Below the pieces are notes generated by a model that saw nothing but the letters and a program-made list of their open reading frames with translations, made no database searches and was not told the origin of the DNA. Positions 7,221 through 34,590 of a stretch of DNA of 37,174 bases are shown piece after piece. Position 1 is the stretch's first letter, and each line of letters opens with the position of its first letter. The DNA is taken from positions 1 to 37,174 of the forward strand of contig JAEEII010000166.1 of assembly GCA_016281295.1 (NCBI GenBank), given 5' to 3'. The translations under genes and the position numbers were made by a program. Origin of the DNA: Bacteroidales bacterium (GTDB taxonomy: Bacteria; Bacteroidota; Bacteroidia; Bacteroidales; F082).

Positions 7221-8690
7221 ATGAAACAACTAAAACCATTTTCTTCATTACATCTTGTTTGCTGCGCTCTTTTTTTGATCGTAGGCGGTACAATTTCTTG
7301 TACAAAAGGATTAGATCAACCGCAGTCAATACCTTCAAAATCAGACTTTAATGAAGTTGATATTATCTCTGTGGAAGATGCTATCACTACTTTAAATAAC
7401 TTTCTTTCGCACAATAACTTGACAAGATCTGAAGCAGGAGAAGAAAGAAGTATTACCTCTGTGGAAACGCACTATAGCGCTACACTTAAAACAAGGGCAG
7501 GAGAGTCCATTCCAGATGCATATTTGGTAAATTTCGATAAAGATGCTGGTTATGCTGTTTTAGGTGCAAACTCCAGCATAGATCCTATTGTTGCTGTAAT
7601 TGAACAAGGTAACACGGATTGGGAAACGCTTCTTCCGTCAATCACAGTGTCGCTCAGCGATGATCTCGACATAAAGTATGAGGAGGGCCCTGTACGTGAG
7701 TACTTAGGTCCAGGAATCGCCCCAGACAACCTAGTATCGCTCTGCGTTCGAGGCGCCTTATATGGAAATGATGAAGAAGAGATTAAGACAAAAGCGGGTT
7801 CTACAACTAATATTCTTTTGAATACATTAGATTTTGGTCAAAATGCAACTTATTGTCACAACGGAAGTCATCATTTTGTAACAAATGGATGCGCATCTAC
7901 CGCCCTCTCAATAATCGTCGCCTATAATAAATACCCTAAATTATTGGTCGATGATGAATGGCTTGATTTAGACAAGTGTAATTATTGTGATGGGAATGCC
8001 TACAAATATCAGTTCCCAACTGGTGAAGAAATATTTGTCAAAATTAGTGACTATTTTACAAATCCAGATGCTATTCCTTCAAGCCTCACAGAATTACAAA
8101 AAAGGGCTTTGTTAACTAAAATAGACCCACAGGTCACAACACACGGATCATTCATTGTTTCCGATGCAGAAGTTCCATATTATCGGACCAGATACAAAGT
8201 TACTTCGGCCAACTTTTATTCCTTAAACAATATCATTAAGGGGTGGGATGCAACAGGGACTATGCCATCTGCAGCAACAGCAGGGCTTAAGAATTTAGGA
8301 TATACCGGGGTTCAAAGCCAATCATATAGGTTTATTACTGACAAGCAAACTTCGGCAATTCTTTATATGTTGAGTTTAGGAAAGCCTGTCCTAATGTGCG
8401 GTTGGACACTTTCAGAGCTCTCAGATAGTCACTATTGGGTCGTTGACGGCATTAATATTACCGATGATCAAACATTATTCCATTGCAACTGGGGGTGGAA
8501 TGGCACAGGAAATGGTTGGTTCGCAAGGCATTGCTTGAGATCAGACTCTCCAGTTCCTCTCACAAAGTCTTCCGATCCCGAAACCAATAATGGTTGGAAT
8601 CATCTTATTGTATATCAATATAGTATGGAAACGACTCTTCCTCAGAAAAAGTTTACTATTTTTAAGTTGAAACATAGAGCAACATACTAG
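7221..8690 (+). CDS. C10-family cysteine peptidase (streptopain/Spi type), lipoprotein
   Basis: A 489-residue exported peptidase. The leader ends in TISC (Cys27), suggesting lipid anchoring. Residues about 45-130 are the Spi-like inhibitory prodomain (AYLVNFDKDAGYAVLGA), which keeps the enzyme inactive until cleaved. The catalytic domain has nucleophile Cys224 in TNGCASTAL, His404 in DSHYWVVDG, and the FHCNWGWNGTGNGWF block just after it that is typical of C10 enzymes. Relatives include SpeB, interpain and the Bacteroides fragilis bfp proteases, which degrade host or competitor proteins. Length fits zymogens of the family. It is first in the operon behind P3 and is followed after 29 bp by a small envelope protein. 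Activity looks intact. Confidence 0.92.
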   Translation: MKQLKPFSSLHLVCCALFLIVGGTISCTKGLDQPQSIPSKSDFNEVDIISVEDAITTLNNFLSHNNLTRSEAGEERSITSVETHYSATLKTRAGESIPDAYLVNFDKDAGYAVLGANSSIDPIVAVIEQGNTDWETLLPSITVSLSDDLDIKYEEGPVREYLGPGIAPDNLVSLCVRGALYGNDEEEIKTKAGSTTNILLNTLDFGQNATYCHNGSHHFVTNGCASTALSIIVAYNKYPKLLVDDEWLDLDKCNYCDGNAYKYQFPTGEEIFVKISDYFTNPDAIPSSLTELQKRALLTKIDPQVTTHGSFIVSDAEVPYYRTRYKVTSANFYSLNNIIKGWDATGTMPSAATAGLKNLGYTGVQSQSYRFITDKQTSAILYMLSLGKPVLMCGWTLSELSDSHYWVVDGINITDDQTLFHCNWGWNGTGNGWFARHCLRSDSPVPLTKSSDPETNNGWNHLIVYQYSMETTLPQKKFTIFKLKHRATY

Positions 8691-9247: not shown

Positions 9248-9259
9248 ACTTCGGTAAAA

Positions 9260-9282
9260 GGGAACGATTTACCTGTTTACAC
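9260..9282 (+). repeat. Left terminal inverted repeat of the IS1595-like element
   Basis: 23 bp starting GGGAACGA and ending TTTACAC. It matches the reverse complement of 11779-11801 at 21 of 23 positions. Confidence 0.8.
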
Positions 9283-9303
9283 CAATAATCTCGTAAAATA
9301 TTG

Positions 9304-9331
9304 AAGTCCAGCACGAAAATGCTGGACTTTT
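9304..9331. terminator. Rho-independent terminator at the left end of the IS
   Basis: AAGTCCAGCA (9304-9313), loop cgaaaa, TGCTGGACTT (9320-9329), then TTTT. It lies inside the left end of the element, where it would block transcription entering from the peptidase operon. Confidence 0.8.
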
Positions 9332-9383
9332 GTGTAAGAAAACCATAGTTTTAAGGTATAAGTAGATAGAAATACCTTGAACT

Positions 9384-10364
9384 ATGAGACTTGCACTTGA
9401 ACACTTCAATTCCCTTATCTCCCTCGTCAACCATTTCAATAACGACAAGCGTTGCCGTGATTTCATTACCGAGCAGCGTTGGGGCAACGTGGTAGTGTGC
9501 CCGTTCTGCGGTTGCACCCATATCTATGAGTGCGGTAACGGTGACAATCAGTTCAAGTATGCCCATTGTCACAAGCGCTTCTCCTGCCTTGTGGGAACCA
9601 TCTTTGAGAACACCAAACTGCCGTTGCAGAAGTGGTTTATGGCTATATACCTTATCAGCAGCCACAAGAAGGGCATTTCCTCCCGTCAGTTGAGCCGTGA
9701 CATTGATGTGACGCAGAAAACCGCATGATTCATCCTCCATAAGATTCGCACCCTCTTCGCACAGGAGGATGTGGTTCTTGATGGCGTAGTGGAGTGTGAC
9801 GAGATGTATCTCGGCGGCAGGGAGACCAACAAGCACGACTGCAAGCGGACGGAAAAGACTCAGGGAAGAAGCACCAAGACGAAGACTCCCATCTTCGGTA
9901 TGACGATGGTGTGGAAAACCGAGGATGTGGACACCGAGACGGGTGAGGTGCGTGTGAAGACGCACACCTATGAGATTGCGAAGAAGGTGGTTGACACCAA
10001 GGCTGCAACCCTAATCCCCATCATTGAGCATTTCGTTGCCGAAGGCAGTTCCGTTGTAACCGATGAACTGTCCGCATACAACGGACTTGACAAGAAATAC
10101 AACCATATCTTCGCCCGTCACGGGGAGCGTGAATTCACCGTCGGTTCCTATTCAACCAACGGCATTGAGGGCTTTTGGGGACACTTCAAGCGTGTCATCT
10201 TCGGTACATATCACTTCGTCAGCAAGGCATACCTTGAAAGGTACATTGACGAGGCGGTGTTCCGTTTCAATACGAAGAAGATGAAAGAAGCCGATAGGTT
10301 CTCCATAATGTTTGAGAAGTCTATCGGCAAGGTTCAGTATGAGGATGTGAAGATGGTGGCTTAA
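9384..10364 (+). pseudogene. IS1595-family (ISXO2-like) transposase with in-frame stop
   Basis: The frame encodes about 326 residues but is interrupted by TGA at 9726-9728, where the context VTQKTA-stop-FILHKIR shows that Trp (TGG) is expected. Before the stop is the zinc-ribbon (CPFCGC ... CHKRFSC). After it comes the DDE-type core: ECDEMYLGG, VVTDELSAY, and NGIEGFWGHFKR with the closing helix YIDEAVFRFN. Both halves are in one frame and otherwise well conserved, so a single G-to-A change inactivated it recently. The carboxy half has its own ATG at 9771, but a product lacking the zinc-ribbon is unlikely to transpose. Confidence 0.88.
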
Positions 10365-11173
10365 TCCTGTCCCGAATAGAAACTATCGTAGTAATCTACA
10401 TTGACGGTTCTATCAAGTCGGTACATAAGCGCACTGATTTGTTTTATTAGTTTAGAAACCTCATCGTTTCCTTGCCCTGGATTAAAACCGACTTGTGTTG
10501 CGGCATCAGATACCTTCTTGCGTATTGAGAGTATTGCTTGTATTGCATCATCTACAATCTGCTGATTATAGCCCACCTTCAACACCTTCTTCACGCTCTC
10601 AGCAACAATCTGCCTGAGGGTGTTTTCGTTTATCTTTACTACATTTTTCTTCATATTCTTGTTTGTTTTTGATTCTTCTATTGATGAGTCCATTCCGTGT
10701 CCACCGGCAGGAATAGCCCTTCCGTTCGCCGTAGTTTCAATGTTCATATAGTCAGGCTTAACGGATATCCTATCAAACCGCTCTCCTTTACCAGTTGGCT
10801 CACTGAATATGTTTGTCGTCATCATTTGCTGAAGACTGCCGACAATCATCTTGATGTCTTGTTTAGACAACGAGGCAGATTTGAAAACATATTCAGTAAC
10901 TCTTATAGGTTTCCTCCTTTCTGTTACGGTAAACAAACACTCCTCGGTATATGTATCTTCTCCATCTTCAAATACAAGACTGAGGATATTTCGCTTCTCA
11001 TCTTGTGGGTTCTTTTGAAGATAGTTGTCCCATATCTTCATCCATGTGCAATGGTTTGAAACACGAACCAAGGTGTTCCCCAAAACGGTATAATGAGAGT
11101 CAGCCTCTTTCTCTGCTTGTTGGAACCGAATCTTCTGCTTGATTGCAATGAATAATTCTCTTGCGTACGCCAT
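10361..11173 (-). CDS. IS passenger gene, 270-aa hypothetical protein
   Basis: Encoded convergently with the transposase; the two stops overlap by four bases. The product has no leader or membrane segment. Residues 1-165 look like a compact alpha/beta domain with no motif I recognise. From about residue 173 it reads MKKNVVKINENTLRQIVAES, a short helical motif that I associate with small Bacteroidota phage or mobile-element proteins. The product may be a fusion of two such modules, or the internal ATG may start a second, shorter product. Because it lies between the terminal repeats it moved with the element. Function unknown. Confidence 0.6.
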   Translation of the reverse strand: MAYARELFIAIKQKIRFQQAEKEADSHYTVLGNTLVRVSNHCTWMKIWDNYLQKNPQDEKRNILSLVFEDGEDTYTEECLFTVTERRKPIRVTEYVFKSASLSKQDIKMIVGSLQQMMTTNIFSEPTGKGERFDRISVKPDYMNIETTANGRAIPAGGHGMDSSIEESKTNKNMKKNVVKINENTLRQIVAESVKKVLKVGYNQQIVDDAIQAILSIRKKVSDAATQVGFNPGQGNDEVSKLIKQISALMYRLDRTVNVDYYDSFYSGQD

Positions 11174-11197
11174 AACTTATCATACAATAAATATCAC

Positions 11198-11205
11198 TAT
11201 CTTTG
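11198..11205 (+). promoter_or_regulatory. -7 box of the second IS passenger gene
   Basis: TATCTTTG, a perfect Bacteroidota -7 box, 14 nt before the ATG at 11220. The expected transcript start near 11210 leaves a leader of about 10 nt and rules out the longer in-frame start at 11139. Confidence 0.7.
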
Positions 11206-11219
11206 CAAAAAACAGAGAA

Positions 11220-11759
11220 ATGGAGATTATTTCTACACGCTTGATTTATCACAAGTACTCACGGGGCTATCTTGAGGATAATTGTCCTATTGACACTTTG
11301 AAAGACACTAACCTTGAATGGAACAAGGAAGAACATAAGAATCATCCCTACAAAATAGATATTGAACAATCAGACATTGCTTTTGTAATTAAGGATTTGG
11401 ACAAAAAAGAGGAATTTGGTTTCTTCTTTTTCAAAACTGACACGGCGTTGGAGGGTAATGTGATGTACACATTAACAAAAGTAGTATTGGATGAGAATCT
11501 GCCGATTGATTATATTAGAACAACGGTTAAAAATGCTGTTGGACTGCTTAACAATGGCGAATTCTTGAGAAAAGACAGAATAGTTGCCAATGACAATTAT
11601 CCTTTAATTAGGCACACATTAGTAGAAACTGCTGAAAAGGTGGCTGATGATGTTGTCAAGGCATTCTTGTCCAAAAAGAACAACGGAATCGTAAAGATTC
11701 CTTCCGATATGGAAGATAGGCTTAAGAAGGCTGCACAAAAAGGTAACGCACCCGAATAG
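11220..11759 (+). CDS. IS passenger gene, 179-aa hypothetical protein
   Basis: Divergent from the other passenger gene and driven by the box at 11198. It starts MEIISTRLIYHKYSRG. The first half is beta-rich with a run of five consecutive Phe (GFFFFF region near residue 66), and the second half is helical, ending on basic residues (MEDRLKKAAQKG). No signal peptide and no catalytic motif I can name. It ends 20 bp before the right terminal repeat. Passenger genes of IS1595 elements vary (resistance, methyltransferase, hypothetical), so no function is proposed. Confidence 0.65.
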   Translation: MEIISTRLIYHKYSRGYLEDNCPIDTLKDTNLEWNKEEHKNHPYKIDIEQSDIAFVIKDLDKKEEFGFFFFKTDTALEGNVMYTLTKVVLDENLPIDYIRTTVKNAVGLLNNGEFLRKDRIVANDNYPLIRHTLVETAEKVADDVVKAFLSKKNNGIVKIPSDMEDRLKKAAQKGNAPE

Positions 11760-11778
11760 GATGCGTTTCTTTCATTTA

Positions 11779-11801
11779 GTGTAAACAGGTATGTCGTTCC
11801 C
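11779..11801 (-). repeat. Right terminal inverted repeat of the IS1595-like element
   Basis: 23 bp from GTGTAAAC to CGTTCCC, the complement of 9260-9282 with two central mismatches. It marks the right boundary; the GTPase operon begins 127 bp further on. Confidence 0.8.
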
Positions 11802-11927
11802 TAATAGAATGGAGCATCTGAATATGATTGGGGTTTTTTTGTCCCTTGATGGGGAAGGATAAATCAAGTCGAGAATCCTACAACAGGGCAAAAATAAGTA
11901 TATAATAACAAGGATAATAACAAGAGA

Positions 11928-13166
11928 ATGAAGATACTACAAATATCTGATATACATTGGACGAAGCGAAAGCATTGGGATGCAGATTTCCCAGGAATGA
12001 AAGCAAGACTTCTTGTGGATATCAAAGAGTTTATTGAAGCAGGAAACGAGATAGACTATATCTTCATTTGTGGTGATATAGCCTTTAAAGGAATAAAGGA
12101 AGAATACGAAAAGGCCCTGGCGTACATCGACGAGATTTGCAGAATAATAGGGCGGACTAGAGAAGATGTCTTTGTCGTACCGGGGAACCACGACCTGAAC
12201 AGAAATGCGCTTGGTCATCAGACAAGAGAAATGATTGACGCATCGTTGGCATTCGAGCCCAACAATGAGGCTGTTCTTGATGAAGTACTGCTTAAGAACG
12301 GAGTATTGCGGAAAGACCTGTTCGCAGCATTTACGGACTACAATGCTTTTGCTGATAATTTCTTCTGTAAAGAGGAGGTGATGAACAAATGTATTACGGG
12401 TAAAGAATCTGACACTATAGATGATAGCGACAAACTATATTATGAGGCGAAACTACCGAAGAAAGTGGGTGACATTGATGTCACTATCAGGGGCGTGAAT
12501 ACTGCTTTGAACTGCGATGGTTGGGACTGGAACGAAGAGTATCGAAAAGGCCATAAACAAATGTTGCCCCATAGAGCCTATGTGATGGAGAAGGAAGAAA
12601 AGCAAGTGCTGAGAATTATCATGGGCCATCATCCGCTTCCATTCCTGACATCCAGCGACGAGGTGAAGGACTATCTGGATAACCATTATCACATACAACT
12701 GTTCGGACACGTACATTTCCAGTCGATAGGTGATGGAAACAGCGTGGTGGTGCAATCAGGAGCGTTAGACCCTCCCAAGGTAGAAAAGGGGGATAAATAC
12801 CTTCCGGTGTATAACATTATTGATATTAGTCAGAAAGATGCAACCCACGTAGTAGTTAAAGGCATATCCCAAATATGGGACAAGAATAGGTTCATAAATA
12901 ACAATGCAGGTAGTTTTGAGAAAGTAATTACAGTCGAACGAAACGTTAACAAATGGGGAACGCCAAGAATGGGAACGCCGGAAATAGATAAAAGATCGGT
13001 TAAATTCAAGTTCATGAAGCAAGATGACCGAACGAGCTATTTTAACAGGATTGCAGGTGTGGACTTTGAACCGTCAGGTGACAATGATTATGATAATTGC
13101 CTGGAATTTCTATCCGTGTTGGAAAAAATGGATAAATTAGCTAAATTGAATGAACTTCTGAAATAG
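11928..13166 (+). CDS. Calcineurin-like metallophosphoesterase of a GTPase system
   Basis: A 412-residue cytoplasmic enzyme with all metal ligands of the calcineurin-like fold: Asp8 and His10 (SDIHW), Asp50 (CGDIA), Asn87-His88 (GNHDL), His234 (GHHPLP) and His261/His263 (GHVH). The family cleaves phosphodiesters or phosphomonoesters in nucleic acids, nucleotides or proteins with two metal ions. After about residue 330 comes an extra about 80-residue C-terminal part rich in Lys, Asp and Asn, which could bind a partner or substrate. It heads an operon of five genes with gaps of at most 7 bp or with overlaps. In the known double-GTPase conflict systems an enzymatic protein acts as effector, so this enzyme is the natural candidate for attacking nucleic acid or nucleotides. 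The effector role is inferred. Confidence 0.88.
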   Translation: MKILQISDIHWTKRKHWDADFPGMKARLLVDIKEFIEAGNEIDYIFICGDIAFKGIKEEYEKALAYIDEICRIIGRTREDVFVVPGNHDLNRNALGHQTREMIDASLAFEPNNEAVLDEVLLKNGVLRKDLFAAFTDYNAFADNFFCKEEVMNKCITGKESDTIDDSDKLYYEAKLPKKVGDIDVTIRGVNTALNCDGWDWNEEYRKGHKQMLPHRAYVMEKEEKQVLRIIMGHHPLPFLTSSDEVKDYLDNHYHIQLFGHVHFQSIGDGNSVVVQSGALDPPKVEKGDKYLPVYNIIDISQKDATHVVVKGISQIWDKNRFINNNAGSFEKVITVERNVNKWGTPRMGTPEIDKRSVKFKFMKQDDRTSYFNRIAGVDFEPSGDNDYDNCLEFLSVLEKMDKLAKLNELLK

Positions 13167-13173
13167 AAAGCAT

Positions 13174-14142
13174 ATGGGAGATTTGTTGCAAATACTATTG
13201 AATGGTGTAGTGGTCACACCTTTCGATCCCAACATCACAAGTCGCTTAGCGGCGGTGTGTGATGAGATGGCGGCCGAAGTGAAGGTTGATACAATTGACC
13301 GCTATATAGCGTCGTTTGTATTCAATAAACCTGACTGGGTTTTTAAACAGGAAGTGGAGAAAAAGTATGCCGAGACTTATCCAGACGAAGAAGGTTTAGT
13401 GCTGCCTCCACTGTTTGCCATCGTATTAGCCCAGACTATTACGATAGATGCCATCACTAACAAATTGAAAGGTAGGGATCAAGCAGTAGCCTCACTTATA
13501 TTGATGAACTATATGCTTTATAGAAAAGGTTCTTTAACAAAGCTTATCCTTCCTGATTATATATCCGCAATGTATTATAAGATGGATAGCTATATTGATG
13601 GAAAAGATAATCTTGACATTACAGGGAACAAAAAGCATTTAGCGAGTATTCTTTCCAATCCAAATTTCTTAACGGAGAATTATAATGACGAAAGGGTAAG
13701 AAGAGAGGTCCGGGAATTGGCAAAAATGGCCGTTCTTTATAAGAGACAGGCGATTACGGACAAATACAAACAAAGGCAAGGAGAAAACGTCTTCGTCAAG
13801 GTTTATGAATACCTTTGTGAAGTTATAGAGGAGGGAAAGTGGCCTTTCTTGAAGAATGACATTAAAGAAATTCTTTTGGATGTAACCACTGAAGCAGAGC
13901 AGAAAAAACAAGCTACCATCGAGGGTATTATAGGCGAGCTGACTAAGGCAAAAGTTGACCTACCATACGAGAGTCTGGAAGAATCGTCATTGATTTTGAA
14001 GTATATTGCTAGAGACGAAGAGATACCGGTTGAGCTAAAAAGCAAGAGGTTGACGGTGATGGAGTTTGGCGTATATGTATATTATGAGCTTTTGTTGGAA
14101 CATATAATTAGTGAATACTATGGCAGCAGAGAATCAGAATGA
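13174..14142 (+). CDS. Helical GTPase-system protein (possibly GASH domain)
   Basis: A 322-residue, almost wholly helical protein with no leader or membrane helix. A central basic stretch (about residues 175-215: NDERVRREVRELAKMAVLYK) is followed by acidic helices. I see no catalytic motif. Its place between a phosphoesterase and two GTPases fits the helical adaptor domain described for GTPase-associated systems (GASH), but I cannot confirm that match by eye. It begins 7 bp after the phosphoesterase stop, and its own stop overlaps the next gene by 23 bp, so all are translated from one mRNA in fixed ratio. It may link the GTPases to the phosphoesterase effector. Confidence 0.75.
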   Translation: MGDLLQILLNGVVVTPFDPNITSRLAAVCDEMAAEVKVDTIDRYIASFVFNKPDWVFKQEVEKKYAETYPDEEGLVLPPLFAIVLAQTITIDAITNKLKGRDQAVASLILMNYMLYRKGSLTKLILPDYISAMYYKMDSYIDGKDNLDITGNKKHLASILSNPNFLTENYNDERVRREVRELAKMAVLYKRQAITDKYKQRQGENVFVKVYEYLCEVIEEGKWPFLKNDIKEILLDVTTEAEQKKQATIEGIIGELTKAKVDLPYESLEESSLILKYIARDEEIPVELKSKRLTVMEFGVYVYYELLLEHIISEYYGSRESE

Positions 14143-15046
14143 GGAGAAGAAGGGTCTAACAAACTTTTTTGAAGACAGCCCGGAAAGTGTAGATAATGGT
14201 TTTACCCCGGCTATCCCTGACACCTCGCAGTATTACTGTGACGCAATGAACGATGGGAATATCAATATGGTGCTCAATAATGTGAAGCCAGAGTTGATAG
14301 TGCTGATAGGGTTTTCGGATTATGGTAAATCCACTTTCGTGGGCTCGCTTTATTATTATTTGCTTACAAAAGGTCAGGTAGGAGGGTACGAATTATATGA
14401 TTCTGACACCTTTGCCGGATTTGAACGCAGGCTATATCTTAGGAACATCAAGAACGACGAATCAGCTAAGTCAAAAACCCTAAGAACAGAGGAGGGTGAT
14501 GGGTATTTGCTGACACTCACATTGTTCAACCGTTCCATGAGAGAAAAGAAACAGCTTATCTTTTCGGATAGAGCAGGAGAGGCATATAGGAATTATGTGA
14601 ACGTCAAGGAAGTAATCAAGAAAGATGAGTCGCTGCCAAAGGCACAAAGAGTTCTTATTATGATAGATTCTACACAATTGCATACATGTTGGGATATACA
14701 GGAAGGGAGATACCGTCAGTTATTTGACGGACTGAAGGAGTGTGGCAAGATGCCGAAGAACGCGACATTTACCTTGCTGTTTAACAAGATTGATCTGGTG
14801 AATGCCAGAGCAGACCTCAAATCAGCATACGAAAGCGAAAAACCGCATGTGGTGGAATTCTTCTGCTCAGAGCTGGAACAGGAAGAAAGCTCATTGGATG
14901 TAAGAGAGATTGACTCTAAGCACATACATGGAAACACTGGGTTTGAGACCTTGGTCAATGACCTTATTAAAAAGGATGATACTTCGAAAAATGAGGAGAT
15001 GAAATTGAAAAGGGTACTGGACTGGGTTGGAGAAAAACTGAAATAA
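14120..15046 (+). CDS. TRAFAC-type GTPase (double-GTPase 2-like)
   Basis: A 308-residue GTPase. Visible motifs: P-loop GFSDYGKST at 64-72, a Walker B/G3 motif DRAGE at 150-154 (preceded by hydrophobic LIF), and NKID at 222-225 as the G4 guanine-specificity motif. The first 50 residues are polar and probably flexible. The text around the P-loop (SLYYYL, then DSDTFAGFERR) resembles the DO-GTPase2 family of predicted bacterial conflict systems. I use the ATG at 14120; a GTG at 14111 would add three residues. It overlaps the upstream gene and lies four bases before a second, different GTPase, the hallmark of double-GTPase operons. The two probably act as a switch pair or heterodimer. Confidence 0.88.
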   Translation: MAAENQNEEKKGLTNFFEDSPESVDNGFTPAIPDTSQYYCDAMNDGNINMVLNNVKPELIVLIGFSDYGKSTFVGSLYYYLLTKGQVGGYELYDSDTFAGFERRLYLRNIKNDESAKSKTLRTEEGDGYLLTLTLFNRSMREKKQLIFSDRAGEAYRNYVNVKEVIKKDESLPKAQRVLIMIDSTQLHTCWDIQEGRYRQLFDGLKECGKMPKNATFTLLFNKIDLVNARADLKSAYESEKPHVVEFFCSELEQEESSLDVREIDSKHIHGNTGFETLVNDLIKKDDTSKNEEMKLKRVLDWVGEKLK

Positions 15047-15050
15047 GGGT

Positions 15051-15884
15051 ATGGAAAAGAAATGTTTTATTGCGGGATTGCCTGATGCTGGCAAAACGAC
15101 ATACATAGCCGCCTTGTGGGATATTATCAAGCGACGTGGCACAGAGTTGGAACTCCAATTTACAATGAATCCAGATGATACGACATACCTTAACGAGATA
15201 TGGGATTACTGGGTGAGTATGATTAAAATTGAGCGCTCAAAGACACCTGTACCCGACGATATTACTATCAACGTGAAAAGAAATGCAGACGGAGAAGAAC
15301 TAACTTTGGATATTCCGGATTTTATGGGTGAACAGTTTCAGAGAATAATTGATCACACACTGCCGTCGAGTATTCAAAGTTGGATAGCACAGTCAGACCG
15401 TATGCTGTTTCTGATAAACAAGTTGAGTGATAGCTTAAAAGATGATTTAGAAGACGAGGCTGTACAGGCAGATGATGCTATAGATAGGACAAAGGAAAAG
15501 GAAGAAGCGCCCCGTTTAGCACCAGAGAAGATGCTTCTTGCGTCTCAGAATATGATGGTGTTGAAATATATCGCCAACCATGCGAAAATGAAAAAAGTTG
15601 CAATCGGACTATCTGCTTGGGATGTAAAGATGGCAGAGGGAAAGAGCCCAGAAGAGTTCCTGAAGCAGAAATCTCCAGTATTGTATAACTTTATCAAATA
15701 TCATTTTAATGAGTGCGTTTTCTTTGGAGTTAGTGCTCAGGGTTTCGACTACAAGGATTTGGCAGAAAAAGGGGCAGAGATGAGACAGAAAGCCCGTAAT
15801 AGCGACAGAGCCTTTATAGTGTTTGACAAAGAAAAAGATCCTTCGCCAGATTTGACGAAGCCATTAAACTATTTGATATCATAA
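15051..15884 (+). CDS. TRAFAC-type GTPase (double-GTPase 1-like)
   Basis: A 277-residue second GTPase, distinct from its neighbour. P-loop GLPDAGKTT at 9-17, followed by the YIAALWDII helix; G3 DIPDFMGE at 87-94; and SAWD at 188-191 in the G4 position instead of NKxD, a substitution I associate with the DO-GTPase1 family. The N-terminus through YLNEIWDYW fits that family closely. An acidic, Lys/Glu-rich insert at 130-160 may be a flexible regulatory loop. Spacing is 4 bp to the previous gene and 5 bp to the GAP1 gene. The altered G4 motif could mean weaker or different nucleotide preference. The role in a stress- or phage-triggered switch is inferred from family and context. Confidence 0.87.
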   Translation: MEKKCFIAGLPDAGKTTYIAALWDIIKRRGTELELQFTMNPDDTTYLNEIWDYWVSMIKIERSKTPVPDDITINVKRNADGEELTLDIPDFMGEQFQRIIDHTLPSSIQSWIAQSDRMLFLINKLSDSLKDDLEDEAVQADDAIDRTKEKEEAPRLAPEKMLLASQNMMVLKYIANHAKMKKVAIGLSAWDVKMAEGKSPEEFLKQKSPVLYNFIKYHFNECVFFGVSAQGFDYKDLAEKGAEMRQKARNSDRAFIVFDKEKDPSPDLTKPLNYLIS

Positions 15885-15889
15885 CAGAC

Positions 15890-17881
15890 ATGCATATAGA
15901 TCAATTCTTGCATGGTTATAATAATGGCCATCACTTGATAGCCAGTTCAGCATCTTTGCCTTTGAAGGATGCGGATCGGATGTCGTATCTGAGTGACTGG
16001 TCTGGCTACGTGAATCCTTACGACAAGGACACGAGTTATATTACGGCCTATCCTCTGGCAGAATCACAGTGTTATGTGATAGCCAAAAGTTGGTATGCGG
16101 ATGAGATGAGCCGTCCAGGTTGTGTTTGGACACATTCTTTGGTGGTGAAATTAGACGCTTTGGGGCAAAAAGCTAATTTCTATGATTTGCTGAAACTGTT
16201 TCGACGGCCAAACAGGGAAGGGGATGATTTTATGTCCTATACAAAGCCCATCGAACAGAAAGAGGAGGACACACATGAGGGTAGGCTACGTCTGCAGGGG
16301 GTTGACCGTACTAGGTTTATGTATATGGCCGCATTGCTCTTAGACCGCCATAAGCCTGCTATATATGCTGTTGAGAAAGAGGGAGAGGTTTACGAGGAAT
16401 TGTGTATGCGACTTGTTCAGAATATGCCCTATGGTATATTGAAAGAGTTGTCTATCTGTTCTGGCAGTGCAGCAGTTAGACAATTCGAGGGTGGATTCTA
16501 TAATCTCCAATTCGTGGTAGGTAAGGGTGTTTCTTTGATGGAACCATATCCGCCGAATGTCAACAAACCGAAGGCTGATGCTGGATTTCAGTTTTGGATG
16601 GATGCTGTTCTGGATGGGAGGAACGATGTGGCGCAGATGTTACATCGATTCTCGGGAGACATAGGTAACGACTCAAATCAATTCCTAGCAACATTGAACC
16701 TGTTGAGATTGCTTGACGAAAGAATAAAGGGTAATGGAGATGCTGCCACTATTTCCGAGATTCTGAACTATCTTGTGAATGGGTTTGCTGAAAAAACAAG
16801 CGGGGCTTTCCTGAAACGCTCATTTTTAGGAGAACAGATAAGCAAATACTTCTGCGATGAAAAAACTTTTATCTACACTCTTGCAACTATCCAAGAGTGG
16901 GAATCGCTGGATTATGATGCCTTCGCATATTACGAGCGCGTGGAATCTTTCAAAAAGGGACATCCTTTGGAGGACTATCTGTCCTTGTTAGTTAATCTGA
17001 GCAAGGCGGATTACTTGAATGATAAAGGTAAAGTTTTGTTGTCGAATTCACTTGAAGGACTGACCAAAGAGGAAGTGGCTATGCTGCTTAATCAGGACTG
17101 GGGCTTGTTCAAGTCGATTGTGACTATGAACAATCAAGTTCTGGCGGGTGATTTCTGGCTTGACTTGATGCCTCCACAATTTATATCGTTGTTCGCTATT
17201 TTCCAAAGAAATGAACCGAAAGGGTTTGTAGCATGGGATAAATTGTACTATAGATTGTTGACGATAGATACTTTCGTGACTGACAATATCCTGTCTGAAT
17301 TTGCCAAGCATGAGCCTGATTATGTTGCTACTGCACTGAACGAGTGGAATGGCCGAGGAAAGTCCCCAATGAATAGGATTATTCTGGATCAGTGTATGAA
17401 ACAGAAATCGAGGGTATTATTGTGGATGAGGCAACAAATGGCCGTCAATAATGATTTGAGAGCTGCTATCAAGCGATGCATCATGCCGGATGATTCTGCA
17501 GTGGTAAGCTTTGGAAGCAGGACTTGGAAGGGGTTCGTAGATAGTGAACTTAATACGCAAAATGATGCCAATGAGTTAGTGTATATTTATGTGTTGGCAT
17601 TCAATTGGCGGGATTGTTTTGCGCTTGATTACCTGAAGAGGGTGCTTCCTTATATTTATGAGGCTCTTTCGGTTGAGAGCTTGAGTTATCTGGCCTGGAA
17701 AAGGATAGAGCATTTCACGGGGAGTGTGCCATTTTGGAGATCCTGGGATAATTGCAGGAAAGTACTGATTGGGGTAAAAGATTACTGTAAGAGTATGAAT
17801 CTGACAGATTTAGAGGTTGAAAGCTTTACCACCAACCAGAAGTTGAATAGAGAGCTGATGGAGTTGTGGAGAAAAGAGTGA
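15890..17881 (+). CDS. GAP1-like GTPase-associated protein
   Basis: A 663-residue protein with no leader or membrane helix. The N-terminus carries the pattern of the GAP1-N domain: FLHGYNNGHHLIASS at 6-20, then YITAYPLAESQCYVIAKSW and RPGCVWTHSLVV (75-86). The remaining about 450 residues are helical and would correspond to the GAP1 middle and C-terminal parts. In predicted NTP-dependent conflict systems this protein always accompanies paired GTPases and is thought to regulate them or relay their state to an effector. Its direct biochemical activity is unknown. It is the last gene of the five-gene operon, followed by a terminator at 17905. The match is strong at the N-terminus and only by length and context beyond it. 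Confidence 0.85.
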   Translation: MHIDQFLHGYNNGHHLIASSASLPLKDADRMSYLSDWSGYVNPYDKDTSYITAYPLAESQCYVIAKSWYADEMSRPGCVWTHSLVVKLDALGQKANFYDLLKLFRRPNREGDDFMSYTKPIEQKEEDTHEGRLRLQGVDRTRFMYMAALLLDRHKPAIYAVEKEGEVYEELCMRLVQNMPYGILKELSICSGSAAVRQFEGGFYNLQFVVGKGVSLMEPYPPNVNKPKADAGFQFWMDAVLDGRNDVAQMLHRFSGDIGNDSNQFLATLNLLRLLDERIKGNGDAATISEILNYLVNGFAEKTSGAFLKRSFLGEQISKYFCDEKTFIYTLATIQEWESLDYDAFAYYERVESFKKGHPLEDYLSLLVNLSKADYLNDKGKVLLSNSLEGLTKEEVAMLLNQDWGLFKSIVTMNNQVLAGDFWLDLMPPQFISLFAIFQRNEPKGFVAWDKLYYRLLTIDTFVTDNILSEFAKHEPDYVATALNEWNGRGKSPMNRIILDQCMKQKSRVLLWMRQQMAVNNDLRAAIKRCIMPDDSAVVSFGSRTWKGFVDSELNTQNDANELVYIYVLAFNWRDCFALDYLKRVLPYIYEALSVESLSYLAWKRIEHFTGSVPFWRSWDNCRKVLIGVKDYCKSMNLTDLEVESFTTNQKLNRELMELWRKE

Positions 17882-17904
17882 CAATCCCTACATATAATTG
17901 ATTC

Positions 17905-17935
17905 GGGCTAGCAGACTCGGTAGGGAGGCTGGCCC
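17905..17935. terminator. Terminator hairpin after the double-GTPase operon
   Basis: GGGCTAGC (17905-17912) pairs with GCTGGCCC (17928-17935) with one wobble. It has the same core and loop style as the hairpin at 28401-28435 (CGGGCnAGCA ... GGCTGGCCC), so the two may be copies of one mobile or shared terminator. A short AATTT follows. Confidence 0.6.
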
Positions 17936-18110: not shown

Positions 18111-18140
18111 TCCGTAAAATTTTTACGGAAGTTTTTTTTT
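18111..18140 (+). terminator. AT-rich hairpin with T-run upstream of the ATPase gene
   Basis: TCCGTAAAA (18111-18119) and TTTTACGGA (18121-18129) are perfect complements, followed by nine T at 18132-18140. It would stop readthrough from the GTPase operon just before the promoter at 18144. The rest of 17936-18110 holds nothing I can support. Confidence 0.65.
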
Positions 18141-18171: not shown

Positions 18172-19269
18172 ATGTTGACAAAGTTTGCTGTGTCGAATTA
18201 CCGAGGGTTTAAGGACAGAATCGAGTTAGACCTGTCCGATCCTAATGGCTATTCATTCAATTCTTTCGCTATCAAAGATGGTTTGGTGAAAGATTTGATG
18301 ATTTATGGCCCTAACGGGTCTGGTAAATCCAACTTGGGCTTTGCTTTGTTCGACATTGTGAATCATTTGACCCAGAAGAATAAGCAAGCTTTTCCCTACG
18401 CAAATTTTACATATGCGGGTAATGATCATCCCGTAGCATTTGAGTATTGTTTTATGCTCGGGGGCAAACCACTTCGGTATGAATACACCAAGTCCCCAAT
18501 GGGAATTCTCCTGTCTGAAAAGTTGGAATCCGAGGGTATAGTTTTTTTTGACCGCCAGCAGAGGCATATCCATATCAATGAGGATTTATTTCCTCTGCAA
18601 AAGTCCGTCAAGGATAGTTTGCTGCGCCAAGCGAACAATGTCTCGCTGATTTCCTACCTTCTCAATGTTTTCCCGATGGCGAAGGATCACCCGTTGGTCC
18701 TCCTTAATGGTTTCGTGGACAAGATGCTATGGTTTCGCTGCCTGCAAGATCGAGGGTATATTGGTTTTGAATTGGGAATAACGGATTTGGAGGCCTATAT
18801 CATTGAAAGGAATCTGTTGGATGATTTTACGGATTTCGTTTATTCCGTGAGTGGACAGAAGTTTACATTTGCAAAGCCACAACGCGGAGATCGGTTTCTG
18901 TTTTGTTTAATCGACGGGAAGAAGATTGCCTTCTCCGCAATTGAATCGACAGGAACGGCTTCTCTGACTCTTCTATACTATTGGCTTTCAAAGCTTTATG
19001 ATGTTTCTTTCGTTTTTATCGACGAGTTTGATGCCTTCTATCATTATGAGTTGGCTTTCGAGGTCTGCAAGCGTTTGTTTGATAAATCGTGCCAGGTCAT
19101 TTTGACGACGCACAATACTTCGCTTATGACCAATGACTTATTGCGACCGGACTGTTATTTCCTAATCGATGGGAAGCAGGTGAAACCATTGAACAAATGC
19201 ACGTCCAAAGAATTACGTCTAGGACATAATCTGGAGAAGCTTTATCGAGGGAACGGGTTTATGATATGA
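18172..19269 (+). CDS. AAA15/RloA-like ATPase of a two-gene defence module
   Basis: A 365-residue ABC-type ATPase in the SMC/OLD/RloA group. It starts with the usual FAVSNYRGFKD. Walker A is GPNGSGKS at 46-53. The signature region is degenerate (ESTGTASLTLLYYW). Walker B ends in Asp284-Glu285 (FVFIDEFDAF). The switch His is His314 (ILTTHNTSLM). Such ATPases sense invasion and control a nuclease or toxin partner encoded next door. The stop overlaps the start of the next gene by four bases, so the products are coupled. The likely match is an RloA/AriA-like sensor of an RloAB- or PARIS-type system; the exact family needs a profile search. It has its own promoter between two defence operons. Confidence 0.87.
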   Translation: MLTKFAVSNYRGFKDRIELDLSDPNGYSFNSFAIKDGLVKDLMIYGPNGSGKSNLGFALFDIVNHLTQKNKQAFPYANFTYAGNDHPVAFEYCFMLGGKPLRYEYTKSPMGILLSEKLESEGIVFFDRQQRHIHINEDLFPLQKSVKDSLLRQANNVSLISYLLNVFPMAKDHPLVLLNGFVDKMLWFRCLQDRGYIGFELGITDLEAYIIERNLLDDFTDFVYSVSGQKFTFAKPQRGDRFLFCLIDGKKIAFSAIESTGTASLTLLYYWLSKLYDVSFVFIDEFDAFYHYELAFEVCKRLFDKSCQVILTTHNTSLMTNDLLRPDCYFLIDGKQVKPLNKCTSKELRLGHNLEKLYRGNGFMI

Positions 19270-20012
19270 TTCTGTTTGTATTGGAGGGAGAGCGTCCTGA
19301 TTTAAAATTGTACAGGACAATGATGGAGGTATGCGGCGTCGTAGGAGATACGATTGCTGTAGTATATGGATGTAATATCGATGCGCTTTACCATGAAATG
19401 ATTGATTTGGGTGACGGGGCTGATATCGTAGAACTCCTAAGAGATAAATACGAAGGAACGCCATCGAATCCTTTCGAAGGGGTATCCCGCTCAGATCAAT
19501 TCTCGGAAGTATACTTATTCTTTGATTACGATTTCCACGACGTCAATCGGTCACCACAAGTGCTTAATGGCCAACTTGAGTACCTGCTGGATTTTTTCGG
19601 GGAGGAGACGGACCATGGCAAATTGTACATTAATTATCCGATGATTGAGTCGATCCGGTATACGAAGGAACTGCCTGATAGCAACTATTACCAGTATACT
19701 GTTTCTCGTGAGGATTGCCGTTCTTTCAAGAGGGTGACGGCTAGTTTCTCTTTTTATCCCAATATGGACTTCGTGCTGAAAGGAGACGCACATAGCCGAG
19801 CTCGATATTGGGAGTTGTTGAAAATTCAGAATGTAGCGAAAGCGAATTTCATTTGTAATGGTGTGAACGAGTATCCACCTGTGGAAATGGAAAGTATCTC
19901 TCAACGTACGATTCTTCAACATCAAATCGATGAGTTTGAGTCATTGCCCGATTGTAGACTCTCTGTCTTGTCTTCTTATCCGATTATGATGTTTGAATGG
20001 TTGGGTAAATGA
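19266..20012 (+). CDS. TOPRIM/RloB-like partner protein
   Basis: A 248-residue protein coupled to the ATPase by an ATGA overlap. It opens with a strand and acidic turn MILFVLEGERPD (Glu7) and later has FFDYDFHD (Asp87 and Asp89) followed by PMIESIR (Glu128). This order of Glu, then DxD, then Glu is what TOPRIM-fold nucleases of the OLD, RloB and AriB kinds show. No leader or membrane helix. In PARIS the TOPRIM partner is a toxin freed by the ATPase; in OLD it is a nuclease domain. By analogy this is the effector. Overall similarity to named families is too faint by eye to choose one. Confidence 0.72.
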   Translation: MILFVLEGERPDLKLYRTMMEVCGVVGDTIAVVYGCNIDALYHEMIDLGDGADIVELLRDKYEGTPSNPFEGVSRSDQFSEVYLFFDYDFHDVNRSPQVLNGQLEYLLDFFGEETDHGKLYINYPMIESIRYTKELPDSNYYQYTVSREDCRSFKRVTASFSFYPNMDFVLKGDAHSRARYWELLKIQNVAKANFICNGVNEYPPVEMESISQRTILQHQIDEFESLPDCRLSVLSSYPIMMFEWLGK

Positions 20013-20097: not shown

Positions 20098-20202
20098 CTA
20101 TTTTTCTTCATAGATCCATTCGCACCCATCCTGCCGGGGCAAATCCCGCTTCCGGTCGAGGTTCTGGTCCTGGAGGGAGACTCGAGCATATCCGACTTTC
20201 AT
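20098..20202 (-). pseudogene. Resolvase (serine recombinase) N-terminal remnant
   Basis: On the minus strand an ATG at 20202 starts MKVGYARVSLQDQNLDR and continues through GCEWIYEEK to a stop at 20098-20100. This is the conserved start of small serine resolvases, with the catalytic Ser in ARVS. The family normally has about 190 residues; here only 34 remain and no downstream frame resumes. It is a dead fragment marking a former mobile element, and it explains most of the gap between 20013 and 20338. It is distinct from the intact recombinase at 22225. Confidence 0.72.
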
Positions 20203-20241
20203 TGATTTTTGTCTTTTAAAGGGTAATAGTGGTACTTTGAT

Positions 20242-20289
20242 AAAAACACCGATTGCGGGATTGTTTCCGGTTTACGAACCGGTGTTTTT
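20242..20289. terminator. Bidirectional terminator downstream of the coiled-coil gene
   Basis: AAAAACACCG (20242-20251) and CGGTGTTTTT (20280-20289) are perfect complements with a 28-nt loop. They have an A-run on one side and a T-run on the other, so the hairpin can end transcription from either direction. It separates the ATPase/TOPRIM unit from the minus-strand gene ending at 20339. Confidence 0.7.
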
Positions 20290-25258: not shown

Positions 25259-26680
25259 TTAAGAGTGTCTGTTCATAGCGTATAATCTCTTCATTCTTGC
25301 AATTTCACAATAATATGAATTAATACGTTTATAATCACCAGATTTGCTCTCGTTAGCGTTCCTTATCAGGCAGATGGAACAGAAATCCTTGTCTTTGCAT
25401 ACACGGCATTTTGGGAAGTCATCATAAGAGAGTGACCTCAGTTCATGGATGCCAGAGGATTTTTCCCATATCTGTTTCAAGGGCGCATCTTTTATATTAC
25501 CAAGAGAAAGGCTCTGCCATCCCTCACAAGGATACACATTGCCTTTATTTGAGATGCAAACTGAACTTACGCACACTGGGCATATGGTATAATCACGCCG
25601 TCCCATATTGCGATTCTCTTTCTCTTTGCTTTCTCCCGATTCTAATTCCTTAACGATGAAAGGCTCAAGCTCAGACAATTCCAGTCGATACTTCAAATTA
25701 TCGCATGAGCCATCAAAGCAACCGAATAGCATATAATCGCTATCTGCTTCAATATTCATTCCTCTGGCCCAATTGAGCACATCCTGATATGTCTCTTTAT
25801 TTTGCTTCATAATCGGGCAATTGATTTGCATCGGGATATCGTGCTGGTATAATGTCTCTATTGCTTTTTTAGTCTTCTCAAAACTACCCTTTACCGTCGT
25901 AATCGAATCATGCACGTCGGCATTCATAGAGTACAATGAGGTCTGAATACTAAGCAACGGCGTTTTCACAAACTCCTGAAGCATCTCATCCGATAGAAGA
26001 GTAAGATTTGATAGCAGATTAACAGAGATATTGTTCTTACGACACTCTTTGATGAAGAACAGCAAATTAGGGTTGAGCATTGGTTCCCCACCACTTATAG
26101 TAATACTCAAAACATTACATTCTTTGCACTGATCAAGAATCCGGAGGAACAATTCCCTAGACATGACTCCTTTCCGATAGTTCTCGGGAAAATAGCAATG
26201 AATACATCGTTCATTACAAGGCGCAGAGACTTCGAGATGGACACGGGACAAATGATAATTCTGTCCCCACTTTTCATAGAAGTCCTCTTCTTCGATTGTT
26301 TTCTCTATTTCATCTTCATGCAGGGTCTTTGGCGACTTATCTGCATAGGAGAAACAGACAGGATATACGACCTCACCTTGGCCACATCCAACGAAGCCAT
26401 CCCTCGCTAACTCTTGAAAAAAAGCTACAACATCTTTCTCTATCTCAGTCGCCGTAACGCCAACGAACATTTCAAGTAAGCGAAGGGTAATTTCTTCAAC
26501 GGTTTGAGGGGTTTCCGTTAAAACCGAGTAAAACATACTCCCGGTCTTCGACAAAACCCGATCACCGACCTTGACACGGCTCTTAGACGCCGTGTCATAC
26601 CCAAAATTTCGATTATCAGTCAGATAACCGAAATCAAGATAATCTCGATACAGAATATATGGTAACTTGTAATATGACAT
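25259..26680 (-). CDS. Radical SAM/SPASM peptide maturase
   Basis: A 473-residue enzyme. Residues 1-105 look like a PqqD-type RiPP recognition element (winged helix) with linker. The radical SAM core has Cys155, Cys159 and Cys162 (CNERCIHC) for the SAM-binding 4Fe-4S cluster, and ISGGEP at 195-200. The SPASM part holds auxiliary-cluster cysteines at about 367, 370, 375, 385, 425, 428, 434, 437 and 458. Such enzymes make thioether or C-C crosslinks in ribosomal peptides. The only small peptide gene beside it, 40 bp upstream, has three evenly spaced Cys. I use the ATG at 26680; the earlier TTG is unlikely. It is expressed with the precursor from the promoter at 26869. The exact bond formed is unknown. 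Confidence 0.9.
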   Translation of the reverse strand: MSYYKLPYILYRDYLDFGYLTDNRNFGYDTASKSRVKVGDRVLSKTGSMFYSVLTETPQTVEEITLRLLEMFVGVTATEIEKDVVAFFQELARDGFVGCGQGEVVYPVCFSYADKSPKTLHEDEIEKTIEEEDFYEKWGQNYHLSRVHLEVSAPCNERCIHCYFPENYRKGVMSRELFLRILDQCKECNVLSITISGGEPMLNPNLLFFIKECRKNNISVNLLSNLTLLSDEMLQEFVKTPLLSIQTSLYSMNADVHDSITTVKGSFEKTKKAIETLYQHDIPMQINCPIMKQNKETYQDVLNWARGMNIEADSDYMLFGCFDGSCDNLKYRLELSELEPFIVKELESGESKEKENRNMGRRDYTICPVCVSSVCISNKGNVYPCEGWQSLSLGNIKDAPLKQIWEKSSGIHELRSLSYDDFPKCRVCKDKDFCSICLIRNANESKSGDYKRINSYYCEIARMKRLYAMNRHS

Positions 26681-26685
26681 AACCA

Positions 26686-26714
26686 AGTGCGGTAGCCTAG
26701 AACGCTACCGCACT
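26686..26714. promoter_or_regulatory. Stem-loop between precursor and maturase genes
   Basis: AGTGCGGTAGC (26686-26696) and GCTACCGCACT (26704-26714) form a perfect 11-bp stem with a 7-nt loop. In the minus-strand mRNA it lies six bases after the precursor stop and five bases before the maturase ATG, with no T-run. It probably protects the 3' end of the precursor message or lowers maturase translation, so that precursor exceeds enzyme. This is inferred. Confidence 0.65.
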
Positions 26715-26913: not shown

Positions 26914-26935
26914 AAATTATCAAGTTTGATAATTT
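26914..26935. promoter_or_regulatory. 22-bp palindromic operator between RiPP and toxin genes
   Basis: AAATTATCAA (26914-26923), centre GT, TTGATAATTT (26926-26935): a perfect 10-bp inverted repeat. It lies five bases before the -7 box of the toxin gene (26941), so a bound HigA-type repressor would block that promoter. It may also affect the divergent RiPP promoter at 26869. Confidence 0.75.
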
Positions 26936-26940
26936 GGTAT

Positions 26941-26948
26941 TATCTTTG
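26941..26948 (+). promoter_or_regulatory. -7 box of the toxin-antitoxin operon
   Basis: TATCTTTG, a perfect Bacteroidota box, four bases before the ATG at 26953. The message would be leaderless or nearly so, and this start excludes the longer frame beginning at 26926. Confidence 0.72.
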
Positions 26949-26952
26949 CCAA

Positions 26953-27291
26953 ATGAAAGTTCAAACACTCATTATAGAATATGCCGATATCGCAATTGAG
27001 GAGGTAATTACCTACGGCAAGAGCGACGACAAACGTTACCGAAAATTGAAAGGTAATAAGACCTTCTGGCGAGATCTGAGTAAAGTGATGGCGATTATCA
27101 GGGCTGCCACTAACACATCAGATCTTAAACCCTACACTAGCTTACACTACGAAAAGCTCAAGTATGACAAAAGTGGGCTGAGCAGTGTAAGAATTGGATA
27201 TAACACAAAGTACAGACTTATTTTTGAAGAATTCGATGGCGGAATTCGGATCAAGCTAATCGAAATCAATGAACACTATGGCGACAAATGA
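26953..27291 (+). CDS. higB: HigB-like toxin (RelE/ParE superfamily)
   Basis: A 112-residue basic protein. Motifs resemble HigB: KGNKTFWRDLSKVMAIIRAA helix region, the strand SSVRIGYNTKYRLIFEE and the final ikLIEINEHYGDK. The family cuts mRNA in the ribosome A site and halts translation. Typical toxin size is about 95-115 residues, and the downstream gene encodes an antitoxin-like HTH protein, overlapping by 14 bp. The order toxin-then-antitoxin is characteristic of higBA. The catalytic residues cannot be fixed by eye, and activity is not shown. Confidence 0.85.
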   Translation: MKVQTLIIEYADIAIEEVITYGKSDDKRYRKLKGNKTFWRDLSKVMAIIRAATNTSDLKPYTSLHYEKLKYDKSGLSSVRIGYNTKYRLIFEEFDGGIRIKLIEINEHYGDK

Positions 27292-28396
27292 CACAAACAA
27301 CACCCCTTTCAGGGCCGTTCATCCTTCCGAGATTATCAAAGATGAAATCAAGGCAAGGTCTATGACCCAGAAAGAGCTGGCTGAACGTATGGGGATGCAA
27401 GCTCCAAACGTGACCAGGCTGTTGAAAGGAGAAAACATCACCGCATCCATCGCACAAAAGTTGGAAGACGCATTAGGCATTCCGGCCGACTTTTGGATGA
27501 GATTGCAGACCCAGTACGACAGAGATGTCAAAGACATCGCCGTACGGGACGAGAACGAGAAAGCGGCTATCGTTGCTGAGAACATGCTCTCCAGTACCCT
27601 AAATCTGGCAGAGCTCTACAAACGGCTAAAGATCAGTGCCGTCCTGTATGTGCAGGAAAAACTGCAGAAACTGGAAGAATTCCTAGGCTTCAAGCCGCTT
27701 GAAATCAGGAACCAGGAATTCGCCCAGAAATTGAACTATAATTACAAGAAGAGCGATAAGAGTGATGTGGATGAGAAGAACCAGACCACATGGCTGACGC
27801 TTGCCTACATTGAATCCAGGGCGAACTCTCCCCAAAGCCAATTCATTCAGGGCAACGCGCAAATAGCTGCACACGACATTGCGGTGCGCGCGCATACAGG
27901 AGAACTTCGTGAAGCTGAAATCCACGACATTTTAAACAAGTACGGCATTGTTTATTCTGTGATTCCCAAGTTGGACAAAACACCTATTGATGCGGCTTCT
28001 ATGAAGGTTGGTGAGCACCCTGCCATTATCACGACACACCGTTTTAACGATATGAGCAGGCTGGTTTTCAATGTGCTCCATGAACTCGGGCACATTGAAA
28101 AGCACATGTATAATGATAATAATGAAATCTTTGTATCCGGTGACACTTACTCAATAGATTCGCCCAAAGAACGAGAGGCTAATTTGTTTGCCCAAAATAT
28201 GCTCATAAGTCAAAGACTATGGGATACAATGATGAACAGTGGCCCTATTAATAGCCTTAGGTTCGGAAACATCGTAGACCGGTTGAGAACCCTATCAACC
28301 GAGAATAACTTAGACTTTAATATAGTTGTGTGGCGATGGAAGTATGAGAGCCACAACTATCAGTTAAGAGGGACAAGACCAGCCCCCATCCAGTAG
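27278..28396 (+). CDS. higA: HigA antitoxin fused to ImmA/IrrE-type metallopeptidase
   Basis: A 372-residue two-domain protein. Residues about 15-75 form an XRE helix-turn-helix (PSEIIKDEIKARSMTQKELA, then MQAPNVTRLLKGEN), which binds the operator at 26914 and neutralises the toxin. Residues about 200-350 contain a zinc-peptidase motif HELGH (His268, Glu269, His272), followed by the acidic zinc-ligand region (KEREANLFAQNML), as in ImmA/IrrE. Such peptidases cleave repressors or antitoxins on stress, so this fusion could control its own stability. ATG at 27278 is used; 27269 is three codons longer. It overlaps the toxin gene and ends 5 bp before a strong terminator. Confidence 0.9.
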   Translation: MATNDTNNTPFRAVHPSEIIKDEIKARSMTQKELAERMGMQAPNVTRLLKGENITASIAQKLEDALGIPADFWMRLQTQYDRDVKDIAVRDENEKAAIVAENMLSSTLNLAELYKRLKISAVLYVQEKLQKLEEFLGFKPLEIRNQEFAQKLNYNYKKSDKSDVDEKNQTTWLTLAYIESRANSPQSQFIQGNAQIAAHDIAVRAHTGELREAEIHDILNKYGIVYSVIPKLDKTPIDAASMKVGEHPAIITTHRFNDMSRLVFNVLHELGHIEKHMYNDNNEIFVSGDTYSIDSPKEREANLFAQNMLISQRLWDTMMNSGPINSLRFGNIVDRLRTLSTENNLDFNIVVWRWKYESHNYQLRGTRPAPIQ

Positions 28397-34586: not shown

Positions 34587-34590
34587 AGGC

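Follow-up and report, generated by a model that had tools for sequence, protein, structure and literature searches.

A GAP1-N1-type double-GTPase operon of a Bacteroidales bacterium and a possible longin-type role for its GAP1 protein

Analysis of a 37,174-nucleotide stretch of DNA from a Bacteroidales bacterium (assembly GCA_016281295.1, contig JAEEII010000166.1; hereafter the window, meaning the whole stretch) revealed a five-gene operon which is almost certainly a double-GTPase conflict system of the GAP1-N1 type. The operon itself is of a computationally predicted kind, and what the analysis adds is a testable interpretation of its GAP1 protein as a longin-type GTPase-activating protein (GAP), based on a longin-like N-terminal domain in the predicted structure and on a single invariant arginine, Arg75, at the position proposed for an arginine finger.

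The five open reading frames (ORFs) are tightly packed on the plus strand between 11928 and 17881, with spacings of +7, -32, +4 and +5 bp, and their coordinates together with the Pfam matches upheld the motifs and gene order given in an earlier, sequence-only reading of this DNA. The Metallophos, DO-GTPase2, DO-GTPase1 and GAP1-N1 models all matched above their curated cut-offs (Table 1), including the GTPase and GAP1 models which that reading had named as a check. The GTPase-centric systems predicted by Kaur et al. 2020 (PMC7159879) to be conflict systems consist of two DO-GTPases, a GAP1-N1 protein and a GASH protein, with a calcineurin-superfamily phosphoesterase as the commonest effector domain of the GAP1-N1 class and Bacteroidetes among the published hosts; the combination of metallophosphoesterase (MPE) and GTPase pair is therefore not new. 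The window has the same composition, namely two paralogous DO-GTPase genes, an N1-type GAP1 encoded downstream (PF20012 over residues 3-104), a GASH protein detected by profile-profile comparison and slot position while Pfam alone was silent, and an effector slot which is variable among relatives and most often holds an MPE. It differs in that its GASH protein and probable GAAD tail have diverged past Pfam detection and in that its DO-GTPase2 lacks a zinc ribbon. Beyond GAP1-N1, no Pfam model matched the GAP1 protein at E 10, neither GAP1-M nor GAP1-C, the presence of N1-type M and C models in the Pfam copy used being unconfirmed; the remainder of the structural model is long and helical. The earlier statements that paired GTPases with GAP1 proteins are known computationally as conflict systems, and that the products act as effector, switch and regulator, are in agreement with Kaur et al. 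2020 (PMC7159879).

Table 1. Features of the operon and of its surroundings in the window.
Feature	Position	Strand	Basis
Slot 1 effector, calcineurin-like MPE, 412 aa	11928..13166	+	PF00149 1.6e-12
Probable diverged GAAD adaptor at the MPE C-terminus, residues about 353-412	12984..13163	+	hhalign
Slot 2 protein, 322 aa, helical nearly throughout, diverged GASH	13174..14142	+	AlphaFold2 model, pLDDT 90.0; hhalign
DO-GTPase2, 311 aa, GTG as start codon, with an in-frame ATG 9 bases downstream	14111..15046	+	PF19993 8.5e-23
DO-GTPase1, 277 aa	15051..15884	+	PF19975 5.4e-51; alignment
GAP1, 663 aa; longin-like N-terminal domain (predicted) followed by a small alpha/beta region and a long helical part	15890..17881	+	PF20012 1.1e-31; AlphaFold2 model
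GAP1 longin-like domain (predicted), residues 1-126, b-b-a-b-b-b-a-a	15890..16267	+	AlphaFold2 model, fold search
Codon of GAP1 Arg75, candidate arginine finger, beta4-beta5 loop	16112..16114	+	Conservation and model
Insertion sequence, IS1595-type transposase domain	9259-11802		27-nt inverted repeats, 89%: 9259-9285 / 11776-11802
Terminator-like stem and T-run downstream of operon	18111..18129	+	Consensus scan alone (8 sites of this type in region, 3.8 expected)
Two-gene ATPase system downstream of operon	18172-20012		PADLOC candidates PDC-M12A 2.3e-123, PDC-M12B 5.5e-55
Type I restriction-modification set: HsdR-like, HsdS-like, N6 methylase	31650-36990	-	

The AlphaFold2 model of GAP1 reached a mean pLDDT (predicted local distance difference test) of 91.2 and a pTM (predicted template modelling) score of 0.75, and in this confident model residues 1-126 look longin-like in fold. 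In a fold search with the model, three of the five best rows were chains of GATOR1, which is a GAP for Rag GTPases. Arg75, located between strand 4 (residues 61-69) and strand 5 (79-87), is the sole invariant residue among the 34 arginines of the window's GAP1 and was conserved in all 118 homologues covering the position, all 61 members of a distant group included (120 homologues were listed of 190 from a word search, and two do not cover it). It was also present in 196 of 196 members of a larger but pattern-biased set, the locus-based counts being biased because the search patterns include RPGCVWT and AK-WYA-E. A conserved arginine finger between longin beta4 and beta5 has been proposed as the hallmark of DENN GAPs (PMC12803157, preprint), and Arg75 agrees with this description, with the strands taken from the model. 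The catalytic arginine of GATOR1 is Arg78 in the longin domain of NPRL2, FLCN Arg164 lies in the analogous loop (PMC7464330), and SMCR8 Arg147 points at the nucleotide site of ARF1 (PMC8213707). Eukaryotic longins have moreover been derived from prokaryotic GAPs (PMC3521125).

Several observations qualify the reading as a longin-type GAP. The arginine-finger role in Rag GAPs had itself been questioned (PMC8213707), Foldseek by itself gave no significant match for the GAP1 model, and residues P76-T81 are conserved almost as strongly as Arg75, so that a purely structural role of the loop is possible. In addition, profile searches of the PDB with both GTPases gave no Rag-like relative among the matches listed, so that the likeness to Rag systems comes from the pairing and from GAP1 instead of from the GTPase sequences; PDB sequence searches with GAP1, the GASH protein and both GTPases gave no telling relatives. 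DENN proteins were first known as guanine nucleotide exchange factors (GEFs), and GAP1 might instead be a platform of the GEF or scaffold type, whose longin-like domain binds or loads the GTPases while Arg75 holds the loop together. We judge this alternative somewhat less probable than the GAP reading; against it, the best longin rows of the fold search include chains of GAP complexes, and the conserved beta4-beta5 arginine is the proposed mark of GAPs within the DENN group (PMC12803157).

In comparison with known GAPs, GAP1 shares a predicted N-terminal longin-like fold and a beta4-beta5 arginine with the longin-type GAPs of Rag and Arf GTPases (GATOR1 NPRL2/NPRL3, FLCN-FNIP, C9orf72-SMCR8 and the Avl9 family), and with the Rag GAPs it would also share a heterodimeric GTPase partner. 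It differs from them in being bacterial, in the lack of detected sequence similarity, in having one longin per protein and a helical C-terminal half, and in that its GAP activity is only proposed. The bacterial pair MglA/MglB likewise combines a GTPase with a longin-related (roadblock) GAP, and longins have been derived from roadblock domains (PMC3521125); the GTPase family is different, however, and GAP1-N follows the longin order, which is circularly permuted relative to roadblock by the description in that source alone. TagF, a regulator of type VI secretion, showed no profile-profile similarity to GAP1 (E 0.18-0.58, 16 TagF sequences). A published link between GAP1 and longins was not found among the matches listed in the open-licence literature (the scope of all literature searches reported here), and the words longin, DENN, roadblock, Rag GTPase, GATOR and TagF are all absent from the main text of the GAP1 paper (PMC7159879).

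In the explanation that we prefer, GAP1 would speed GTP hydrolysis by DO-GTPase1 and/or DO-GTPase2, in the way GATOR1 or FLCN-FNIP acts on the Rag pair, while sensing and scaffolding would fall to the GASH protein and to the helical part of GAP1. Infection would alter the hold of GAP1, the GTPase pair would change its nucleotide state, and the MPE, docked by its GAAD-like tail, would be freed or switched on and would cleave a nucleotide or nucleotide derivative, so that the infected cell stops growing (abortive infection). Taken as a whole, with a longin-type GAP1 that acts as GAP on the GTPase pair and gates a nucleotide-cleaving MPE, this explanation stands in our judgment slightly below an even chance. 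The broader proposal, that GAP1 proteins are bacterial longin-type GAPs using Arg75 as a finger on a heterodimeric pair, and that the logic of GATOR1/FLCN and Rag is employed as an immune switch gating swappable nucleotide-destroying effectors, is put forward more tentatively still.

Scanning genomes with an alignment of 25 GAP1 sequences yielded 144 loci, of which 80 were kept (labelled L001 and onward). The two GTPase genes and the GAP1 gene were contiguous and in order in 73 of these; the seven exceptions comprised L001, L029, L057 and L073, located at or near a sequence end, L023 with a split GTPase frame, L047 with GAP1 alone, and the broken L076. Among the 67 loci with a readable first slot, 51 encoded an MPE, five a PNP protein, four a SEFIR/TIR protein, one an alpha/beta-hydrolase and six a protein that lacks any known catalytic domain and measures about 312 aa (of the 16 non-MPE effectors, 10 were typed one by one, and the others from domain counts and likeness). 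Loss of the phosphoesterase from the GTPases and GAP1 across genomes had been named earlier as a refuting outcome, and the 51 MPEs in 67 readable slots do not bear it out. In a quick GAP1 tree, from which the 13 loci without a readable slot 1 were omitted and in which 19 of 63 inner branches were open, the window grouped with 15 loci (16 rows, SH-aLRT 100), hosted mainly by gut and rumen Bacteroidales and in one case by a Eubacterium metagenome-assembled genome; slot 1 is an MPE in all 15. Effector type changed five times on the tree, against a possible minimum of four, and the one hydrolase inside an MPE clade indicates that effector swapping happens and is rare in this sample. The six slot 1 proteins without a recognized enzyme are 311-316 aa long (L023:6174-7118, L024:6176-7114, L028:5756-6688, L038:5739-6686, L044:5770-6705 and L078:613-1545); those of L023 and L078, scanned singly, had a GAAD tail and no recognized catalytic domain. 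Their GAP1s fall in one clade (SH-aLRT 100), and the proteins may represent an unrecognized effector type.

Sequence analysis of the two GTPases showed that DO-GTPase2 carries the P-loop GFSDYGKS, the G3 motif DRAGE and the G4 motif NKID, while DO-GTPase1 carries GLPDAGKT, DFMGE and SAWD, and the contrast at G4 pointed out earlier is thus real. Judged by the alignment, in which W190 and D191 were invariant in 22 sequences, the SAWD-type G4 is a trait of the DO-GTPase1 family and not a decayed motif. The alignment also showed that the DO-GTPase2 of the window has a single cysteine before the P-loop and no zinc ribbon; the zinc-ribbon pattern, tested in DO-GTPase2 alone, occurred in 31 of 71 loci overall and in none of the 15 loci of the window's clade. 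The helical slot 2 protein is, on profile-profile evidence, a diverged GASH protein. The Pfam GASH model that had been suggested as a check gave no match to it even at E 10, and the relationship was visible only by profile-profile comparison: the profiles A2 and A3 aligned over nearly their full length with an hhalign probability of 95.6 (E 1.2e-8), and the alignment, remade twice, gave probabilities of 81-84 (E 1.2e-5 and 8.3e-6, against 0.17 or worse for the controls). Outside the window's clade, all 37 slot 2 proteins scanned (of 56) matched Pfam GASH.

The MPE of the window had been read as retaining all metal ligands, and the nine residues D8, H10, D50, N87, H88, H234, H235, H261 and H263 indeed did not vary among the 30 MPEs in the alignment, taken from a total of 52 (the window and 51 loci). 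In a PDB search with the MPE profile, the phosphohydrolase 2zo9 and its kin ranked at the top, and the Mre11/SbcD exonucleases were weaker. The protein also matched the PADLOC candidate PDC-S60 (2.4e-24) and the NCBIfam model DS8_antiphage (1e-24, aligning residues 5-339 with positions 1-303 of the 994 in the model), the latter far under its cut-off: measured against the equivalog cut-offs, it scored 86.4 of 790 bits for DS8 and 55.9 of 420 bits for DS9_1 (3.3e-15), and by these models it is kin of DS-8 and DS-9 and no member by score. Both of these systems were validated in the DefensePredictor study (PMC13092281), where the metallophosphatase (MPP) residues were required for phage defence. 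The MPP catalytic domain is shared with the window's MPE, whereas DS-8 consists of a single NACHT-containing protein, a HAD phosphatase is the partner in DS-9, and the switch in the window is a separate GTPase pair. At its C-terminus the MPE probably carries a diverged GAAD domain, as suggested by profile comparison. Pfam gave no GAAD match for the tail in the window; of the 16 non-MPE effectors it recognized the domain in 15 (E 0.01), and of the 30 aligned MPEs in 17 (E 0.1). The 16 C-termini of the clade aligned with the 36 other MPE C-termini at E 1.5e-5 and 3e-6, and with the 16 non-MPE effector C-termini at E 1.4e-6 and 7.8e-7, with controls in both cases at 0.19 or worse.

The phosphoesterase had been proposed as an effector attacking nucleic acid or a nucleotide. 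The effector role is in line with Kaur et al. 2020, while a nucleic acid target looks less likely than a nucleotide, because the slot is common to PNP and SEFIR/TIR proteins and because the tested kin are the MPP proteins of DS-8 and DS-9. The MPE could alternatively be a regulator, which removes a nucleotide alarm signal or holds down the level of a messenger while the harm comes from the GTPase pair or GAP1. The DS-8 MPP has been likened to SMPDL3A, a cGAMP cleaver (PMC13092281), and a cyclic-nucleotide-cleaving phosphodiesterase of the calcineurin superfamily has been proposed for VMAP systems (PMC7159879); nevertheless, the occurrence of PNP, SEFIR/TIR and hydrolase enzymes with a common GAAD tail in the same slot is the pattern of interchangeable effectors, and a regulatory MPE seems distinctly improbable.

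We infer that the operon serves in defence. The distribution of GAP1-N1 is sporadic, with matches above cut-off in two of 295 genomes from the phylum of Phocaeicola vulgatus and in one of 60 from its genus (centre genome excluded). The flanks of relatives do not point to a plain housekeeping context: at a threshold of 1e-15, 137 flank proteins matched 59 PADLOC families over 26 pairs, compared to seven families for 137 control proteins from the same contigs, and as one protein can be matched by several models, this should be read as no fewer than 13 protein names versus seven. The comparison covered the long-contig loci of the 80, with the L076/L129 pair dropped (broken operon), proteins above 800 aa dropped on both sides, and control stretches placed by the analyst at round coordinates. 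The 25 of the 59 flank families shown include LmuA/LmuB, RmrA/RmrT, AbiEi/AbiEii, DrmD and dGTPase models; nine of these rows are RmrA models, and TniQ, also among them, is no defence gene in itself. The system might instead guard against plasmids or other mobile elements, or constitute a stress-response or addiction unit. GAP1 relatives occurred in 29 of 72,556 plasmid records, with less than half of the protein matched in the 20 records listed and no record covering 80% of GAP1. The 50,697 phage records contained none, whether searched as protein or as DNA. Neither an experiment nor a mechanism for the GAP1-N1 double-GTPase class, anti-phage activity included, was found among the matches listed in the literature. 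A role other than phage defence is nonetheless improbable in view of the enriched flanks, the sporadic distribution and the MPP kin proven against phages (PMC13092281). Eighteen pattern-matching stretches in viral contigs were rejected, none being a true relative, and a distant DNA search with the GAP1 gene gave no relative in E. coli genomes.

The operon of the window had been described as flanked by an insertion sequence (IS), an ATPase/TOPRIM pair and recombinases. The IS, the ATPase and the recombinases were verified, but the TOPRIM label was not, as the product of the pair's second gene had no Pfam match and only the PADLOC match to PDC-M12B. The IS ends 125 bp upstream of the operon, and no target-site duplication was seen beside it by eye. 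Its transposase region consists of two ORFs (9384-9728 and 9771-10364, the second alone scanned); two extra ORFs, 10361-11173 (minus strand) and 11139-11759 (plus strand), had no significant family match and are possible passengers. The closest relative, L004, showed 92% DNA similarity across 11807-17935 and no other alignment above 150 bp in the 22 kb compared. A cassette with its own upstream border was considered and rejected, since the start of this similarity abuts the IS edge. Past the PDC-M12 pair, a 189-bp stretch of L001 (2058-2245) is 72% identical to window positions 20101-20288. Elsewhere, the window encodes a C10-family (streptopain-like) peptidase with a Spi inhibitor propeptide domain (7221-8690), a radical SAM-SPASM protein with a PqqD domain, resembling maturases of ribosomally synthesized and post-translationally modified peptides (25259-26686), a HigB-like toxin ORF overlapping a helix-turn-helix protein with an M78/IrrE-like domain, likely a toxin-antitoxin pair (26926-28396), and a 710-aa protein without a Pfam match at 0.001 (29445-31577, minus strand).

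Sequence-based descriptions of double-GTPase systems date back to 2020, and the longin-like fold together with an arginine at the finger position gives GAP1, a protein of unknown role, one sharp biochemical question. If the proposed reading is true, the effector slot would hold a set of enzymes, the MPE included, with nucleotide targets to seek, and a regulatory device best known from eukaryotic nutrient sensing and membrane traffic would also work in bacterial immunity.

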